Below, in pieces: positions 43,129-50,434 of a DNA stretch of 64,000 nt (position 1 is the stretch's first letter; each line of letters starts with the position of its first letter). The notes under the pieces were generated by a model. It did not search any database. It was not told the origin of the DNA and was given only the letters and a program-made list of their open reading frames with translations. Made by a program: the position numbers and the translations under genes. Source of the stretch: Klenkia taihuensis (GTDB lineage Bacteria; Actinomycetota; Actinomycetes; Mycobacteriales; Geodermatophilaceae); NCBI RefSeq assembly GCF_900112525.1, contig NZ_FOMD01000003.1, forward strand, positions 124,001-188,000. Direction: 5' to 3'.

Positions 43129-46100
43129 TCAGCCCGCCGCGACCCTCACCCTCGTCTCGAGGGTGAGGGTCGCGTCGTCGGGGCCGGCGACCCGGTCGTC
43201 GTGCGTCACGCAGACCACCACCCGCCCGGCCAGGGCGGTGCGCAGGTCGGCGACCAGCCGCTGCGCGGTGGGCCGGTCCAGGTGCGCGGTCGGCTCGTCG
43301 AGAAGGACGACGTCCCGGTCGGCCAGCAGTGCCCGGGCCGCCGCCAGCCGGCGGCGCTCGCCACCGGACAGCGCCGTCCCCCCGGCCCCGACCGGGGTGT
43401 CCAGGCCGTCGGGCAGCCCGGCCACGAGCGGGCCGAGCCCGCAGGCGGCCAGCGCGGCGAGCATCGCGTCCTCGCCGACCTCCCCGCGCGGCCCGGCCAG
43501 CGCCAGGTTCGCCCGGATCGAGGACGCGAAGACGTGCGCCTCCTGCGGCAGCCACGCCATGGTCGACCGGACGTCGTCCCCGGTCAGCTCGTCGGCCGGC
43601 ACCCCGGCCAGGTCGTAGCGGCCGGCGCGGGGCCGCAGCGACGCCATGAGCACGGCCAGCAGGGTGGACTTGCCCGCCCCCGACGGCCCGCGCACCACCA
43701 GCCAGCCGCCCCGGTCGGCGGTCAGGTCGACGTCCTGCAGCACGTCCGGGCCGCCGGGCCAGCCGGCGACCAGGCCGGCGGTGGTCAGCCGGTCCACCGG
43801 GGAGGGGACAGTGGCGGGTGTGGCCGGGTCCTCGGCCACCGGGGCCTCGACCGCGGCGTCCAGGCGCGCCCGGACGGCGTCCCACGCGCCGCGTCGTTGC
43901 AGTGACCCGACCCAGCCGGTCAGCGGCTCGGCGAAGGCCAGCGGGGCGAGGGCCAGCACGGCCAGGACCGGCCCGGACACCCCGGACGCCCAGCCCAGCG
44001 CGGCGGCCGCGACGGCGGCCAGACCGGTCCCCGCGACCACCGCGCCCTCGGCGGCGGCGGAGGCCCGGACCGCCCCGGCGGCCGCGGTGCGCTGCGCTGC
44101 CGCCAGTGCCTGCACCCGCGTGCCGGCACGGGTCGCCAGACCGTGCGCACGCAGGTCCACCGCGCCCTCGAGGACGTCGGTCGCCTCCTGCAGCGCCCGC
44201 ACCCGCAGGTCGGCCTCGGTGCGGGCGGCCTCGGCGTCCACCCGGCGGTGCAGCAGCGCCACGACCGCCGCGGTGAGCAGCAGCACCGCCAGGACACCGG
44301 CCGCGGCGACCGGCGACAGCAGGGCGAGCAGGCCGCAGCCGAGCAGCGCGGTCGCGGCGGCCACCGCCGGTGGCGTGACGACGCGCACCGACAGGTCCTG
44401 CACCAGCCCGACGTCGCCGACCGCGCGGGCGAGTGCGGCGCCGGGTGTGCGGTCGGCGGCCAGGCCCTGGCGGGCCAGCGCCCGCCAGACCCGCACCCGG
44501 GTGCCCGCGGCCAGCCGGAGCGCCGCGTCGTGGGCGGCCAACCGCTCGGCCCAGCGGGCGATCGCGCGCAGCAGGCCGAAGCCGCGCACGCCGACGATGG
44601 CGACGAGCAGCGTCAGCACCGGCGGCATCTCGGCCGCCCGCAGCACCAGCCAGCCCGACAGCCCGGTGAGGGCGACCCCGGCCAGCGCGGTGACCGTGCC
44701 GCCGCCGATGGCCCGGGCGAAGGCCGCCCGGGGCCAGCCGGTGTCCATCTCGGCCGCCGGCCCGGGAGCTGCACCCCCCGCGCCGGGGCGGTCGACGGGG
44801 GTGGAGCTCCCGACCGCGGGGGTGGGCGGGGCGGCGAGGGTCACCGACCGGTCGGCCAGCGCGGCCAGCACCGGGTCGTGCGTGACCAGGACGACGGCGA
44901 CCGTGCCCCGCAGGTCGGCCAGGACGGCGGCGACCCGCGCGGTGGCGGCGTCGTCGAGGTGGGCGGTGGGCTCGTCGAGCAGCAGCAGCGCCGCACCCCG
45001 GCGCACCCGGACCAGCGCGCGGGCCAGCGCCACCCGCTGCAGCTCACCCGGCGACAGCGTGATGCACCGGCGTCCGGCCAGCGCGGTGGCGCCCACCCGG
45101 TCGAGCGCGTCGACGACCAGGCCCTCGGCGACCACGGCGTCCAGCGGGTCGGCGTCGTCGATGCCGGCGTGCAGCCGCAGCTCGTCGGCGACGGTCTCGG
45201 CCGTGGTGCGCGGGTGCTGCGGGGCGACGGCGACGCGGTCGGGCAGCCCGGTGACCGGCCCGGTGACCTGCGCGGTGGTGGGCAGCGTGCCGGCCAGCGC
45301 CGCGAGCAGGGTGGACTTGCCCGACCCCGAGGGGCCGGTCAGCGCGACGACCTCGCCGGGCCGGACGTCGAGCGCGGCGGGCGCGAGCGCGGGCACGGCC
45401 CGGCCCGGGTGCTGCACCGACAGGTCCGACACCACGACGGCGGCGCCGCGGGGGTCGTCGGCCGGGGCGCCCGGCGCGGGGACGTGGTCGGGGGCGGCGA
45501 GCACCGCGCGGGCCTCGGCCGCGGCCTGCCCCGCGTCGGCGTTGGCGTGGTAGGCCGACCCCAGCGCGCGCAGCGGCGCGAACGCCTCGGGCGCCAGCAG
45601 CAGCGCGGTCAGCCCGGTGGCCAGGCCGAGGTGCCCCTCGACCAGCCGCAACCCGACGGTCACCGCGACCAGCGCCACGGACAGCGTCGCGATCAGCTCG
45701 AGGACCAGGGCCGACAGGAACGCCAGCCGGAGCGTCGCCGTCGTCGTCCGGCGGTGGCGGTCGCCGAGCGCGGCCAGCGCCGCGGCCTGCTCGGCCGCCC
45801 GGCCCAGCCCGGTGAGCACCGGCAGCCCGCGGACCAGCTCGGCCACGTGGGCGGCGATGCGGTCCAGCGCCCGCGCGGCGTCGGCGGTGCGGTCGGCGGT
45901 GTACTTGCCGACCAGCACCATGAACACCGGCACCAGCGGCAGGGTCAGCGCGACCAGGACGGCCGACAGCAGGTCGGTGCCGGCCAGCACGAGCAGCAGC
46001 ACGGGCGGGACGACGAGGGTCTGCGCGAACGCGGGCAGGTAACCGGCCAGCGCGGGGGCCAGGTCGTGCAGCCGCGTGGTGACCAGCACCGCGGCCGGCC

Positions 46101-46455
46101 CGGTGCCGCCCGCGGCGTCCACGGCGGCGGGCCCGCGGGTCAGCCGGTCCAGCAGCTGCCCGCGCAGGGCGTCCTCGCTGCGCCGGGCGTCCCGGTTGGC
46201 CCACCGGGCACCGACCGCGCCGCCGCCGGCCCGGACCAGCGCGCCGGCACCGGCCAGCGCGAGGGCGGGCAGCGGCGACCGGCCGTCGACCGCGGCGGCC
46301 AGGCCGTGCGCCAGGCCCAGGGCGAGCCCGACCACGCCGAGGGTCTGCACTAGGGCGACCACCCCGGCCCGGACGACGGCCCCGGTGACGCCGGGGACGC
46401 CGTCCAGCGGGGCGAGCGGGCCCCGGTTCGGGCGTGGGCTCATGCGTGGGCTCAT
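43129..46455 (-). CDS. cydDC: Fused CydD-CydC thiol-reductant ABC exporter
   Basis: An 1108-residue fusion of two half-transporters. The CydD part (about 1-540) has six membrane helices and an ATPase with Walker A GPSGSGKST at 374-382, signature LSPGELQR and LLLLDEPTAHLDD. After a Pro/Gly linker (about 545-570), the CydC part has Walker A GPSGAGKST at 923-931, signature LSGGERRR and VVLLDEPTAHLDR. CydDC exports cysteine/glutathione-type thiols and is needed for cytochrome bd haem assembly. ATG 46455 overlaps the cydB stop by 4 bases (ATGA). Most bacteria encode CydD and CydC separately; fusions occur in actinobacteria. Confidence 0.93.
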   Translation of the reverse strand: MSPRMSPRPNRGPLAPLDGVPGVTGAVVRAGVVALVQTLGVVGLALGLAHGLAAAVDGRSPLPALALAGAGALVRAGGGAVGARWANRDARRSEDALRGQLLDRLTRGPAAVDAAGGTGPAAVLVTTRLHDLAPALAGYLPAFAQTLVVPPVLLLVLAGTDLLSAVLVALTLPLVPVFMVLVGKYTADRTADAARALDRIAAHVAELVRGLPVLTGLGRAAEQAAALAALGDRHRRTTTATLRLAFLSALVLELIATLSVALVAVTVGLRLVEGHLGLATGLTALLLAPEAFAPLRALGSAYHANADAGQAAAEARAVLAAPDHVPAPGAPADDPRGAAVVVSDLSVQHPGRAVPALAPAALDVRPGEVVALTGPSGSGKSTLLAALAGTLPTTAQVTGPVTGLPDRVAVAPQHPRTTAETVADELRLHAGIDDADPLDAVVAEGLVVDALDRVGATALAGRRCITLSPGELQRVALARALVRVRRGAALLLLDEPTAHLDDAATARVAAVLADLRGTVAVVLVTHDPVLAALADRSVTLAAPPTPAVGSSTPVDRPGAGGAAPGPAAEMDTGWPRAAFARAIGGGTVTALAGVALTGLSGWLVLRAAEMPPVLTLLVAIVGVRGFGLLRAIARWAERLAAHDAALRLAAGTRVRVWRALARQGLAADRTPGAALARAVGDVGLVQDLSVRVVTPPAVAAATALLGCGLLALLSPVAAAGVLAVLLLTAAVVALLHRRVDAEAARTEADLRVRALQEATDVLEGAVDLRAHGLATRAGTRVQALAAAQRTAAAGAVRASAAAEGAVVAGTGLAAVAAAALGWASGVSGPVLAVLALAPLAFAEPLTGWVGSLQRRGAWDAVRARLDAAVEAPVAEDPATPATVPSPVDRLTTAGLVAGWPGGPDVLQDVDLTADRGGWLVVRGPSGAGKSTLLAVLMASLRPRAGRYDLAGVPADELTGDDVRSTMAWLPQEAHVFASSIRANLALAGPRGEVGEDAMLAALAACGLGPLVAGLPDGLDTPVGAGGTALSGGERRRLAAARALLADRDVVLLDEPTAHLDRPTAQRLVADLRTALAGRVVVCVTHDDRVAGPDDATLTLETRVRVAAG

Positions 46456-47468
46456 GCGTGCGCGTGCTCGGGCTCGGCGGTCAGCCGCTTCCGGAACACC
46501 CAGTAGGTCCACGCCTGGTAGCCCAGCACGACCGGCAGGCCGACGCCGGCGACCCAGGTCATCACGGTGAGCGTGTAGTCGCTGACCGACGCGGTGCCGA
46601 TGACCACGTCGAACGCCGGGTCGACGGTGGAGGCGACGACGGTGGGGTAGCCGGCGCCGAACACCGCGGCGGCCGAGGCCAGCAGCACCAGCGCCCAGCC
46701 GAGGAAGGCCTGGCCCTCGCGGTCGACCTTCAGCCGGGTCCACGTGCCGACGACGGCGAGCGCGGCGACCAGCCACAGCACGGTGGAGACGACCCCGCCG
46801 GAGCGGAGCACCACCAGCCCGGCCCAGGCCAGCAGGGGCAGCGCGGCCAGCGGCGACCAGCGCAGCGCGAACGCCCGCGCGCGCTCGCGGACCGGGCCCT
46901 CGGTCTTGAGCGCGAGGAACACCGCGCCGTGCACGAGCGAGTAGGCGAGCACCGCGACCGCGCCGAGGGCGACCGGCCAGCCCACCCAGGAGAAGGCGCC
47001 ACCCACCCGGGTGCCGTCCGCGCCGACCGGCAGGCCCAGCGTGGTCGCGCCGAGCGCCCCGCCGACGGCGAGCGCGGCGACCACCGAGCCGCCGGTGATG
47101 ACCCGGGTCCAGGTGGCGTCCCACTCGGCGTCGTGCCGCTGGTGCCGCCACTCGAAGGCGACCGCCCGCACGATGAGCGCGAGCAGCAGCAGCACGAAGG
47201 GCAGGTACATCGCCGGCAGCCAGGTGGCGTACCAGCCGGGGAAGGCGGCGAACACCGCGCCGACCGCGGTTACCAGCCAGACCTCGTTGCCGTCCCAGAC
47301 CGGGCCGATGGTGCGCAGCATCAGGTTCTTGTCCGCCCGCCGCTGCGCGGGGTCGCCCTTCGACAGCACCGGCAGCAGCGCGGCGACGCCGAAGTCGAAG
47401 CCCTCCAGCAGCAGGAAGCCGGTCCACAGCACCGTGACGGCGGCGAACCACAGGGTCTGCAGGTCCAT
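46452..47468 (-). CDS. cydB: Cytochrome bd ubiquinol oxidase subunit II
   Basis: A 338-residue membrane protein with about eight helices. It begins MDLQTLWFAAVTVLWTGFLLLEGFDFG, the CydB hallmark, followed by RRADKNLMLRTIGPVWDGNEVWLV. It pairs with CydA to form the high-affinity terminal oxidase reducing O2 with quinol. It lies 11 bases after cydA and overlaps cydDC, giving a cydA-cydB-cydDC operon used at low oxygen or under stress. Confidence 0.96.
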   Translation of the reverse strand: MDLQTLWFAAVTVLWTGFLLLEGFDFGVAALLPVLSKGDPAQRRADKNLMLRTIGPVWDGNEVWLVTAVGAVFAAFPGWYATWLPAMYLPFVLLLLALIVRAVAFEWRHQRHDAEWDATWTRVITGGSVVAALAVGGALGATTLGLPVGADGTRVGGAFSWVGWPVALGAVAVLAYSLVHGAVFLALKTEGPVRERARAFALRWSPLAALPLLAWAGLVVLRSGGVVSTVLWLVAALAVVGTWTRLKVDREGQAFLGWALVLLASAAAVFGAGYPTVVASTVDPAFDVVIGTASVSDYTLTVMTWVAGVGLPVVLGYQAWTYWVFRKRLTAEPEHAHA

Positions 47469-47479
47469 GGCGGGGCTCC

Positions 47480-49036
47480 TCAGTACGCGAACTGCAGGAC
47501 GTCGTCGCTGGCGTCGTCGTCCGGTCGGGTGGGTGCGTCGTCGTCCGTGCCCGGGCCGCCGCCGATGCCCGGTGTCGGGGTGGTGTCGCCCTCGGTGATC
47601 CCGGCCCGGACGAACCGGACGATCAACCCGAACTCGACCACCGCCAGCACGGCGTAGAGCACGCCCAGGCTGATCAGCGACGTCCAGACCTCGGCGGCGG
47701 TGACGCCGGGGGAGACGGCCTGGGCGGTGAAGAAGTAGACCTGCTCGGCCCGTGGTACGTCCGGGTTGGGGACGACGACGAAGGGCTGGCGGCCCATCTC
47801 GGTGAAGACCCACCCGGCGGCGTTGCCGACGAACGGCGCGCCGACCGCGAGCAGGGAGCCGTAGACACCGATCCGGGACGTCGGCACCCGCCCCTTCCTG
47901 GTCGACCAGAGGGCGTAGGCGGCGACCGCGGCCGACACCATGCCCATGCCGATCATCAGCCGGAAGCCCCAGTAGGTGACCGCCAGGACCGGCGTGTAGT
48001 CGATCGGCTCGCCGGCCTTGTCGCCGAAGCTCGGGTCGTCGGGGTAAGTGGCGCCGTAGGCGTCGGCGTACTGCTCCTGCAGCTGGTTCACCCCGGGGAC
48101 GGGGGAGGAGAAGTCGCTGTGGGCCAGGAAGCTGAGGATGTAGGGGATGGTGATCGAGTGCACGTCGTCGCACTCGTTGCTGCCGAGCTTGGAGAAGGCG
48201 AACAGCGAGAAGGACGCCGGTGCCTCGGTGTCGCACAGCGCCTCGGCCGAGCTCATCTTCAGCGGCTGCTGCTGGTACATGAGCTTGCCCTGCCAGTCGC
48301 CGGTCAGCGCCACCAGCACGAACGCGGCCAGCGAGACGTAGCCGCCGAGCCGGACCGAGCGGCGCCACACCGCGTGGTCGACGTCCTCGGTGCTCCGCCC
48401 GGCCAGCTTCCGCTTGCGCAGGTGCCACAGCCCGATGCCCACGAGCAGGCCGCCGGCGACCATGAGCGAGGCCACGATCGCGTGGCTGAAGGCGGCCAGC
48501 GCGGTGTTGTTCGTCAGGACGGCGAGGAAGTCGACCTGCCGCGGCCGGCCGGTGGCCTCGTCCACGACGACGCCGACCGGGTGCTGCATCCAGGAGTTGG
48601 CCGCGATGATGAAGTACGCGCTGATCGTGGAGCCGACGACCGCCGCCCAGATCGTCGCCAGGTGCAGCTTCTTGGGGATCCGGCCCCAGCCGAAGATCCA
48701 CAGGCCCAGGAACGTGGACTCCAGGAAGAAGGCCAGCAGGGCCTCCAGCGCCAGGATCGAGCCGAACACGTCGCCGACGAAGCGGGAGTACTCGCTCCAG
48801 GCCAGGCCGAACTGGAACTCCTGCACCAGCCCGGTGGCCACGCCGAGGACGAAGTTGATGAGGAAGATGCGGCCCCAGAACCGGGTCATCCGCAGCCACT
48901 CGGCCCGGCCGGTGCGCACCCAGAGGGTGTGCATGACGGCGACCAGCAGCCCCAGGCCGATGGTCAGCGGGACCATCAGGAAGTGGTAGACGGTCGTGAT
49001 GCCGAACTGCCAACGAGCGATGTCGAGCACGTCCAC
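47480..49036 (-). CDS. cydA: Cytochrome bd ubiquinol oxidase subunit I
   Basis: A 518-residue CydA with nine expected helices. Haem ligand candidates are His18 (TTVYHFLMVPL) and His185 (FSHAIVASLMV); Glu98 (ILALEALLAFFLEST) is in the haem d region; the quinol loop begins GDWQGKLMYQQQPLKM. The short Q-loop is typical of actinobacterial forms. GTG 49036 follows GGAGG. The acidic C-tail is unusual but not motif-bearing. Transcription starts in the intergenic DNA that also holds BlaI-type operators. Confidence 0.96.
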   Translation of the reverse strand: MDVLDIARWQFGITTVYHFLMVPLTIGLGLLVAVMHTLWVRTGRAEWLRMTRFWGRIFLINFVLGVATGLVQEFQFGLAWSEYSRFVGDVFGSILALEALLAFFLESTFLGLWIFGWGRIPKKLHLATIWAAVVGSTISAYFIIAANSWMQHPVGVVVDEATGRPRQVDFLAVLTNNTALAAFSHAIVASLMVAGGLLVGIGLWHLRKRKLAGRSTEDVDHAVWRRSVRLGGYVSLAAFVLVALTGDWQGKLMYQQQPLKMSSAEALCDTEAPASFSLFAFSKLGSNECDDVHSITIPYILSFLAHSDFSSPVPGVNQLQEQYADAYGATYPDDPSFGDKAGEPIDYTPVLAVTYWGFRLMIGMGMVSAAVAAYALWSTRKGRVPTSRIGVYGSLLAVGAPFVGNAAGWVFTEMGRQPFVVVPNPDVPRAEQVYFFTAQAVSPGVTAAEVWTSLISLGVLYAVLAVVEFGLIVRFVRAGITEGDTTPTPGIGGGPGTDDDAPTRPDDDASDDVLQFAY

Positions 49037-49055: not shown

Positions 49056-49116
49056 GTCTACGATCGGTCGACTTCTTTCTACGCCACGTAGAAGTCGATT
49101 TCTACAACCGGTAGAA
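49056..49116. promoter_or_regulatory. Three tandem BlaI/MecI-type operators between cydA and blaI
   Basis: Two perfect inverted repeats of form TTCTAC-N5-GTAGAA lie at 49077-49093 and 49100-49116. A weaker third (GTCTAC-N5-GTCGAC) lies at 49056-49072. Centres are 21 and 23 bases apart, about two helical turns, so dimers could bind on one face. The CTAC/GTAG half-sites resemble known BlaI/MecI operators. Confidence 0.75.
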
Positions 49117-49149
49117 GAAGCGCCGGTGATGTTCGAGACAGGAGGACCC

Positions 49150-49497
49150 GTGGAGTCGCTGGGGGAGCTGGAGCGCTCGGTGATGGACCAGCTGTGGTCC
49201 CGCGCCGTCCCGCTGTCGGCGGCGGAGCTGCGGGACGCGCTGGCCGACCGGGGCCTGGCGCTGACCACCGTGCACACGGTGCTCACCCGCCTGGAGGGCA
49301 AGGGCTTCGTGCGGCACGACGACGCCCGCCCGCGCCGGTTCGCCGCGGTCGCCAGCCGCGAGGACCACGCCGCCGAGCTGATGCACGAGGTGCTCGGCCA
49401 GGCCGCCGACCGGCAGGCCGTGCTAGCCCGCTTCATCGGGTCGGCGACGCCGGGCGAGACCGAGATGCTGCGCGCCCTGCTGGCCGACACGCCCTGA
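49150..49497 (+). CDS. BlaI/MecI/CopY family transcriptional repressor
   Basis: A 115-residue winged-helix repressor: LGELERSVMDQLW, LSAAELRDALADRGLALTTVHTVLTRLEGKGFVRHD, then dimerisation helices. Cleavage of such repressors by an M56 partner relieves repression in staphylococci. GTG 49150 behind GGAGG is preferred over GTG 49126, which lacks a ribosome site. The M56 protease gene begins 4 bases after its stop. Its likely sites are the tandem repeats upstream, which also cover the cydA promoter region. Confidence 0.9.
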   Translation: MESLGELERSVMDQLWSRAVPLSAAELRDALADRGLALTTVHTVLTRLEGKGFVRHDDARPRRFAAVASREDHAAELMHEVLGQAADRQAVLARFIGSATPGETEMLRALLADTP

Positions 49498-49501
49498 CCC
49501 C

Positions 49502-50434
49502 GTGCTGCCGCTGAGCGCGCTGCTGCTCGGCCTGCTGGCGCTCGCGCTGGCCTGGCCGGTGCCCGCCGTGCTCTCGCGGGCGCGGTGGCCCCGGCGCGAC
49601 CCGGTCGCGGCGCTGGTCTGCTGGCAGGCGATCGGGCTGGCCGGTGGCCTGTCGATCATCGGCGCGCTGCTGGTGCACGGGCTCTCGCCGTGGGGCGGGT
49701 CGCTGCCCGAGGCGTGGTGGGCGTGGGCGCAGCACTGGTTCACCGGGGAGCTGCCGGCGCAGCCGGTGCGCGGGGACCACTGGGTGGCCCAGACGCTGGC
49801 CGCCGTCCTGGCGCTGGAGCTGCTCGGCGTGCTGGCGTTGGCGCTGGTGCGCACCGCCCGCACCCGGGCCCGGCACCGCGCGCTGCTCGAGCTGCTGGTG
49901 CACCCGGTGCCCGGCGTCGAGGCCCGGGTGCTGGACTCCCCGGTGCCCGCGGCGTTCTGCATCCCGGGCGCCCGCCCGCTGCTCGTGCTCTCGTCGGGGA
50001 TGGTCGAGGAGTTCGCCCCCGACGAGCTGGCCGCCGTCGTCGCGCACGAGCGGGCGCACCTCGGCGAGCGGCACCACCTGCTGCTGCTGCCCTTCGTCGC
50101 GTGGCGGGAGGCACTGCCCGTGCTGCCGGCCGCCGACCGCGCCCACGACGCCGTCCGGGACCTGGTGGAGATGCGGGCCGACGACGTCGCGCTGCGCTCG
50201 CTGCCCAGGTCCGCGGCGCGCCGCACGCTGGCCCGGGCGATCGTGGCCGCCGCGGAGGGCGGTGCGCCGACGGGTGCGCTGGCGGCGGGCGGGGGAGTGC
50301 TGACCGCGCGGGTGACCAGGCTGCTCGACCCGCCCGAGCCCCTGCCGAGGTGGGGCCGGCCGCTGGCGGTGGGTGCCGCGGTGACCCTCGTCCTGGCCCC
50401 CACCCTCCTCCTGCTCGCCCCCGCCCTCGTCTGA
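49502..50434 (+). CDS. M56 family metallopeptidase (BlaR1/MecR1-like, sensor domain absent)
   Basis: A 310-residue membrane protein with N-terminal helices. A cytosolic gluzincin site is seen as VVAHERAHLGERHH (HExxH, about residue 183) with a downstream EMRADDVAL Glu ligand, then a C-terminal helix. Unlike BlaR1 there is no extracellular penicillin-binding domain. Paired with the BlaI-like repressor, it may cleave it in response to an unknown membrane signal. Confidence 0.88.
   Translation: MLPLSALLLGLLALALAWPVPAVLSRARWPRRDPVAALVCWQAIGLAGGLSIIGALLVHGLSPWGGSLPEAWWAWAQHWFTGELPAQPVRGDHWVAQTLAAVLALELLGVLALALVRTARTRARHRALLELLVHPVPGVEARVLDSPVPAAFCIPGARPLLVLSSGMVEEFAPDELAAVVAHERAHLGERHHLLLLPFVAWREALPVLPAADRAHDAVRDLVEMRADDVALRSLPRSAARRTLARAIVAAAEGGAPTGALAAGGGVLTARVTRLLDPPEPLPRWGRPLAVGAAVTLVLAPTLLLLAPALV

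Follow-up and report, generated by a model that had tools for sequence, protein, structure and literature searches.

The window analyzed here is a 64-kb stretch of DNA from Klenkia taihuensis, in which a minus-strand cytochrome bd operon diverges from a blaI gene and a protease gene, both on the plus strand. The start of cydA (49036) and the GTG start codon of blaI (49150) are separated by a gap of 113 bases. The features of the locus, in window coordinates, are:

43129-46458, minus strand: cydDC, fused CydD-CydC ABC exporter (start codon provisional)
46452-47468, minus strand: cydB, cytochrome bd oxidase subunit II
47480-49036, minus strand: cydA, cytochrome bd oxidase subunit I
49056-49072, no strand: weak third repeat, mismatched at 3 of 12 positions
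49059-49064, plus strand: TACGAT, conserved and similar to a -10 element (44 of 60 family loci have TACNAT)
49077-49093, no strand: operator 1 (predicted), perfect palindrome TTCTAC-GCCAC-GTAGAA, kept in relatives
49100-49116, no strand: operator 2 (predicted), perfect palindrome TTCTAC-AACCG-GTAGAA, at a spacing of 23 bases from operator 1 (22-24 being usual in the family)
49140-49145, plus strand: AGGAGG, likely blaI ribosome-binding site (GGAGG-like in most of the aligned relatives listed)
49150-49497, plus strand: blaI, 115-aa BlaI/MecI-type repressor (Penicillinase_R)
49502-50434, plus strand: 310-aa BlaR1-like zinc metalloprotease (HExxH) of the integral-membrane type, lacking a penicillin-sensor domain

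CydD and CydC, which make up the ABC exporter required to assemble cytochrome bd, are encoded by a single fused reading frame (43129-46458). The TACNAT element can be read for the rightward strand and is at most a candidate part of one of the two promoters; a consensus promoter scan identified no sigma-70 promoter.

Predicted operator sites in the gap and in the genome

A search of the window for TTCTAC-N5-GTAGAA without mismatches returned only the palindromes at 49077-49093 and 49100-49116. These predicted operators lie at the promoter of blaI itself. With the third repeat included, the repeat centers are at 49064, 49085 and 49108, and neighbors are 21 and 23 bases apart. The two perfect repeats and this spacing reproduce what a preliminary description of this DNA had reported; it also had the repeats filling the gap, of which they cover 61 of 113 bases. 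When up to three mismatches were allowed, the window contained 12 copies, versus a mean of 1.44 in shuffled sequences, and none of 100 shuffles reached 12.

The genome (10 contigs with 4,316,910 bases in total) contains no perfect copy besides these two, and its single copy with one mismatch (L003) lies within a long reading frame. At up to two mismatches, there were 63 copies, a number not exceeding the 77 obtained with the reversed control; weaker sites are therefore not in excess genome-wide. A wider regulon in this genome was accordingly rejected for perfect sites, both of which are at cyd-blaI, and no predicted BlaI operator was found at a beta-lactamase or PBP gene among the perfect sites in the genome.

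The preliminary description counted three operator-like repeats. The two perfect ones proved to be conserved; the third, with its three mismatches, was present in only three of 60 family loci (the window's genome and its near relatives L017 and L018) and is thus probably not an operator, for which reason it was rejected as a candidate. A fourth match in the scan for this repeat (L032) was a one-mismatch copy of operator 1. Judging from the aligned gaps listed and from counts over the 60 loci, the element on the cydA side is usually TACNAT, and not a third operator.

Conservation within Geodermatophilaceae

A BlaI orthologue (66-100% identity) was found in 60 of 76 genomes of the family, and a CydA (80-100% identity) in 60 of 76; the two sets consist of the same 60 genomes. 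Non-conservation of the repeats in relatives had been named beforehand as grounds for abandoning the proposed regulation. The opposite was observed: cydA and blaI were divergent neighbors with at least one perfect TTCTAC-N5-GTAGAA between them at all 60 loci. At least two CTAC-N5-GTAG cores were present at 58 of these loci. Neighboring sites were 23 (33 cases), 24 (17 cases), 22 (six cases) or 18 bases (two cases) apart, and nine longer distances (32, 67, 68 and 101) came from genomes with a third site closer to blaI.

The family contains 17 weaker BlaI paralogues, seven of which were fetched (37-44% identity), and none of the seven was beside cydA or a TTCTAC site. The 22 perfect sites found in 12 other genomes of the family were all located between cydA and blaI (places compared by eye). 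The motif search for a wider regulon that had been suggested for this locus gave perfect sites only at cyd-blaI in the 13 family genomes searched, and extra perfect sites in some genomes outside the family. We conclude that the locus is real, strongly conserved and, with its predicted biochemistry and signal, a dedicated variant of cytochrome bd regulation by BlaI. A family-like cyd-blaI locus (82% CydA) was also encountered in a record titled Bacillus sp. AZ43 (L115, UNVERIFIED_ORG), which looks misnamed.

Distribution of the tandem motif beyond the family

The tandem pattern was found in 20 of 394 genomes of the class, and the reversed control in none of the 394. cydA was present at 19 of the 20 tandem loci. 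Group f20, apparently Frankia-like (L088-L099), has a distant CydA subfamily, only 26-31% identical to the window's, and bears the same operator; the operator therefore seems to track the type of oxidase rather than one gene lineage. At the tandem locus lacking cydA (L102, genome G091), a BlaI-protease pair lies beside DUF3105 and DUF305 genes, which are likely to constitute a BlaI target other than cyd.

A pattern scan of named genomes yielded at least 120 loci, in genera including Arthrobacter, Pseudarthrobacter, Cryobacterium, Leifsonia, Brevibacterium, Nesterenkonia, Pseudonocardia, Parafrankia and Geodermatophilus. Among the 120 loci listed, 105 had cydA within 400 bases of the sites; in these 105, blaI was opposite in 93, farther off in one and absent from the stretch examined in 11, some of these stretches ending early. 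The other 15 listed loci comprised eight with blaI only (including L144, the sequence of which stops about 80 bases past the sites) and seven with neither gene. In Pseudonocardia endophytica (7.6 Mb), two of the three perfect sites are at cydA and the third is at a distant blaI on another contig.

Several loci depart from this arrangement. In Virgisporangium ochraceum (L192:1753-3306, L389), a second tandem TTCTAC site precedes a cytochrome b gene. The two remaining perfect sites of that genome belong to a cydA/blaI-protease locus with divergent genes, and together the sites suggest a small respiratory regulon. Leifsonia sp. 71-9 (L124:4088-5069) has one tandem just upstream of PPK2 and one at cydA, with three further perfect sites in its genome. 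The other five loci with neither cydA nor blaI belong to Clostridia-type and Verrucomicrobia records. Outside the family, five of the eight perfect sites were away from cyd in both G077 (reversed control, 2) and G131 (reversed control, 0). The tandem motif also adjoins distant BlaI-type genes outside Actinomycetota, in Tyzzerella sp. An114 (L116) and a Planctomycetota MAG (L129); CTAC-N5-GTAG may, therefore, be a general form of BlaI operator.

Distribution in a cydA-led sample of the class

Taking cydA as the starting point removed the bias inherent in searching by motif. cydA was present in 137 of 197 class genomes, and a sample of 108 genes from 92 genomes, 56 genera and 28 families was taken from the matches listed, with no more than three genomes per genus; some matches in full genera were skipped, and genera g28, g42, g62 and g63 were absent. 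The exact CTAC-N5-GTAG core was found in 40 of the 108 upstream regions. It was the commonest of 1792 combinations of half-site and gap, and permuted half-sites with the same gap occurred at most twice. A BlaI-type site, defined by up to two mismatches to the TACTAC or TTCTAC forms, was identified in 53 of 107 upstreams (one upstream of less than 100 bases being excluded), versus one of 107 for reversed patterns, although one of the 53 (L224) is, by eye, a different palindrome. The remaining 54 of the 107 had no BlaI-type site.

A blaI gene was located within 2.2 kb in 16 of the 40 core-bearing upstreams and in none of the other 24, indicating that the site stays with cydA. Six sampled upstreams had a blaI nearby and no exact core, and all six had a site with one mismatch. 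TACTAC-N5-GTCGTA was present in all five upstreams sampled from g13 and g14 of f2, two apparently Mycobacterium-like genera that belong to the same order as the window. A BlaI-family match was obtained in each of 16 genomes searched, most of which have the operator at cydA and no adjoining blaI; this is weak evidence alone, because BlaI genes are common, and the P. endophytica genome described above provides a stronger case. In G197, one BlaI match lies beside a second cydA, and in G123 a match is about 5 kb from cydA. These distributions suggest, from sequence comparison, that an antibiotic-type BlaI switch serves respiration in many relatives.

The perfect TACTAC form was found in eight of 11 genomes searched, the reversed-pattern control being nonzero in four of the 11. 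In five of the eight it was at cydA; in the other three it was at a LuxE-like gene (one genome) or, in two close relatives sharing one site, near a Rieske gene, as verified in one of the two. In G185, about 26 bases separate the sole perfect TACTAC-N5-GTAGTA from the Rieske-domain reading frame downstream of it (L366:1059-1501), and in the apparently Mycobacterium-like G157, it lies at a gene for a LuxE-like acyl-protein synthetase (L362:1488-2717).

The repressor and its recognition helix

The window's BlaI matched Penicillinase_R (PF03965) with 69 bits (cut-off 22.6) and contains a conserved recognition helix, TTVxTVLxRL, of the winged-helix type. The closest solved structure was 2g9w, which we take to be M. 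tuberculosis BlaI (its record reads conserved hypothetical protein), followed by MecI and staphylococcal BlaI (1okr, 1sd4). Residue F95, which aligns with the cleavage-site F of the staphylococcal repressors, was present in all 184 rows of cyd-linked BlaI (165 distinct proteins).

We compared the operator flank with residue X of the TTVXT motif, in counts that leave out loci and genomes chosen by motif. TT-flanked operators accompanied H in 60 of 60 cases. The 12 proteins with L had TT (seven), TT on some half-sites (four) or no site (one). Of the 31 proteins with M, 11 had an exact core and none a TT half-site. The helix residue varies with the operator flank, partly through shared ancestry, the 60 H cases being from one family. 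The tree of 97 short BlaI sequences was poorly resolved: the cyd-linked proteins clustered, without forming one clade, and linkage to cyd required 10 changes, versus 31.6 in shuffles, with the starred branches forcing at least three. Given this poor resolution, a single origin of the cyd-linked BlaIs, which we considered, is unsupported.

The protease

An HExxH motif was present in all 155 cyd-linked proteases. In Pfam searches, the window's protease passed the threshold for Peptidase_M48 (35.7 bits, cut-off 20.3) and failed that for Peptidase_M56 (18.9 bits, cut-off 31). The structural model (mean pLDDT 87.4) is rich in helices, which flank the catalytic part on both sides, and contains no additional domain. 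Neither Pfam nor the model revealed a C-terminal penicillin-binding sensor domain in the 310-aa protein, in agreement with the preliminary description. VIA-align placed BlaR1 entries at ranks 1, 3 and 4 (Z 7.4, 7.0 and 6.6; 204-222 residues; rmsd 6.1-7.3), with Z values below the trust level for helical proteins; these matches are suggestive of a BlaR1-like fold and fall short of proof. A Foldseek search with the model gave no match at E <0.001, and a sequence-only search against solved structures gave one match, HtpX-like, with an E value of 0.79.

Proposed mechanism and alternatives

We base the following model on the sites themselves, the lack of other perfect copies in this genome, the conservation of such sites at cydA in many relatives, and the variation of their flanks with the BlaI helix residue. 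The 113-base gap would be a control region shared by the two operons, with a BlaI dimer on each of the two palindromes, 23 bases apart, repressing cydA-cydB-cydDC to the left as well as, to the right, the operon that encodes BlaI itself and the protease. Failure of the main respiratory branch, through low oxygen, a shortage of copper or heme, or excessive reduction of the quinone pool, would be the trigger: the BlaR1-like membrane protease would cleave BlaI at the invariant F95, lifting repression, and the high-affinity cytochrome bd oxidase would be made. We consider it quite probable that the local BlaI represses cydAB-cydDC and itself, and that the sensor-less protease relieves this repression in response to a respiratory trigger. 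BlaI binding, repression, autoregulation and cleavage would be expected by analogy with the BlaI/MecI family, and the context of the locus points to a respiratory signal.

The alternative that survives best, although we judge it unlikely, is that the BlaI/protease pair senses cell-wall damage or beta-lactams and that cytochrome bd forms part of a tolerance response. According to PMC5473688, a beta-lactam with clavulanate raises blaI-blaR and cydAB together in M. tuberculosis. The protease at this locus, however, has no penicillin-binding sensor domain, and no beta-lactamase gene lies under a perfect site, since the genome has no further perfect site. Moreover, the few other genes adjoining such sites include three respiratory or energy genes (cytochrome b, Rieske and PPK2), the rest being the LuxE-like and DUF3105/DUF305 genes.

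It seems very unlikely that the sites serve only for the autoregulation of blaI and the protease, with the adjacent cydA under other control. BlaI/MecI repressors are autoregulated, and divergently transcribed genes with a common intergenic region are often not co-regulated, but this account leaves unexplained the 24 of 40 core-bearing upstreams in the class sample that have no adjacent blaI, the 12 of 105 listed named cydA loci without a near blaI (one far, and 11 with none in stretches that in some cases end early) and the two perfect sites at the P. endophytica cydA, the blaI of which is on another contig.

We find it very improbable that Rex, or some other respiratory regulator, binds the palindromes instead of BlaI. 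In other actinobacteria, cyd genes are under Rex control, and the binding of BlaI at this locus is predicted. However, no Rex-type site (consensus TTGTGAA-N4-TTCACAA, up to three mismatches) was detected anywhere in the 64-kb window, the operator flank varies with the BlaI recognition-helix residue, and the motif is also found at the promoters of some BlaI genes away from cydA. Activation rather than repression of cydA by BlaI is hardly credible: in at least 70 named loci, 17 to 151 bases separate the operator from the start of cydA, a possible position for an activator, but in this family the sites are also found directly ahead of blaI, a position at which repression would be expected, and the characterized BlaI/MecI proteins are, to our knowledge, repressors.

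Repression of the cyd operon by BlaI, with relief by the protease, may belong to a broader pattern, which we put forward tentatively, as possible but short of probable. The Actinomycetia BlaI/BlaR1-like pair might be a respiratory rather than an antibiotic switch by origin, with beta-lactamase control as a side branch; the sensor-less protease would monitor the respiratory chain or the membrane, cleave BlaI and turn on cytochrome bd, some lineages keeping a single divergent module and others an operator at cydA with the pair elsewhere.

Comparison with known systems

Cytochrome bd is a backup oxidase that helps actinobacteria to survive low oxygen and respiratory drugs. Rex, SenX3-RegX3 and ArcA/FNR have the same type of target operon (cyd) and are members of protein families different from BlaI. 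The system described here resembles staphylococcal BlaI-BlaR1 and MecI-MecR1 in its repressor family (1okr, 1sd4), its invariant F and, putatively, its BlaR1-like membrane protease. It differs from them in lacking the penicillin-sensor domain, in having a respiratory oxidase as its target, and in having half-sites 5 bases apart, the half-sites of the staphylococcal mec operator being 4 bases apart.

We found no description of a dedicated divergent cyd-blaI-protease module, or of the class-wide spread of its operator, in the literature searched. Elements of this regulation have been reported for M. tuberculosis. An eLife paper (PMC5473688) states that the promoters of cytochrome bd and ATP synthase are bound by BlaI and describes the mycobacterial BlaR as lacking a sensor domain. 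Binding was also shown at the promoter of Rv1303, with which the ATP-synthase operon begins (PMC12565901). In a sigC mutant under copper limitation, the cyd and ATP-synthase operons rise, and loss of the copper oxidase is discussed (PMC7924339). Control of cyd by SenX3-RegX3 is cited in PMC5874750 and PMC7924339. As M. tuberculosis BlaI binding at the cytochrome bd promoter is in print, the connection is less surprising than the preliminary description supposed. That description was right on the main point and its interpretation is supported, with BlaI binding, repression and a respiratory signal as its predicted parts.

The signal of the sensor-less BlaR is said to be unknown for M. tuberculosis in PMC5473688. 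A harmless organism with a compact module of repressor, protease, operators and oxidase, and with no other perfect sites in its genome, would make this question directly testable, and the operator and its flank variants would aid the prediction of regulators in other genomes.

The M. tuberculosis pair, BlaI-BlaR (Rv1846c-Rv1845c), is like the pair in the window in that 2g9w is the nearest repressor structure and the BlaR partner also has no sensor domain, according to PMC5473688. By its locus numbers, that pair is not beside the cyd operon rv1620-rv1624 (as numbered in PMC7924339), whereas here it is divergent to cydA. M. tuberculosis BlaI serves several genes, including blaC (PMC5473688), whereas perfect sites here are only at cyd-blaI, and the operator here is TT-flanked, unlike that of the M. 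tuberculosis system. Because the link between BlaI and cytochrome bd has already been stated for this one species, the divergent module described here is best regarded as a dedicated local variant of it.
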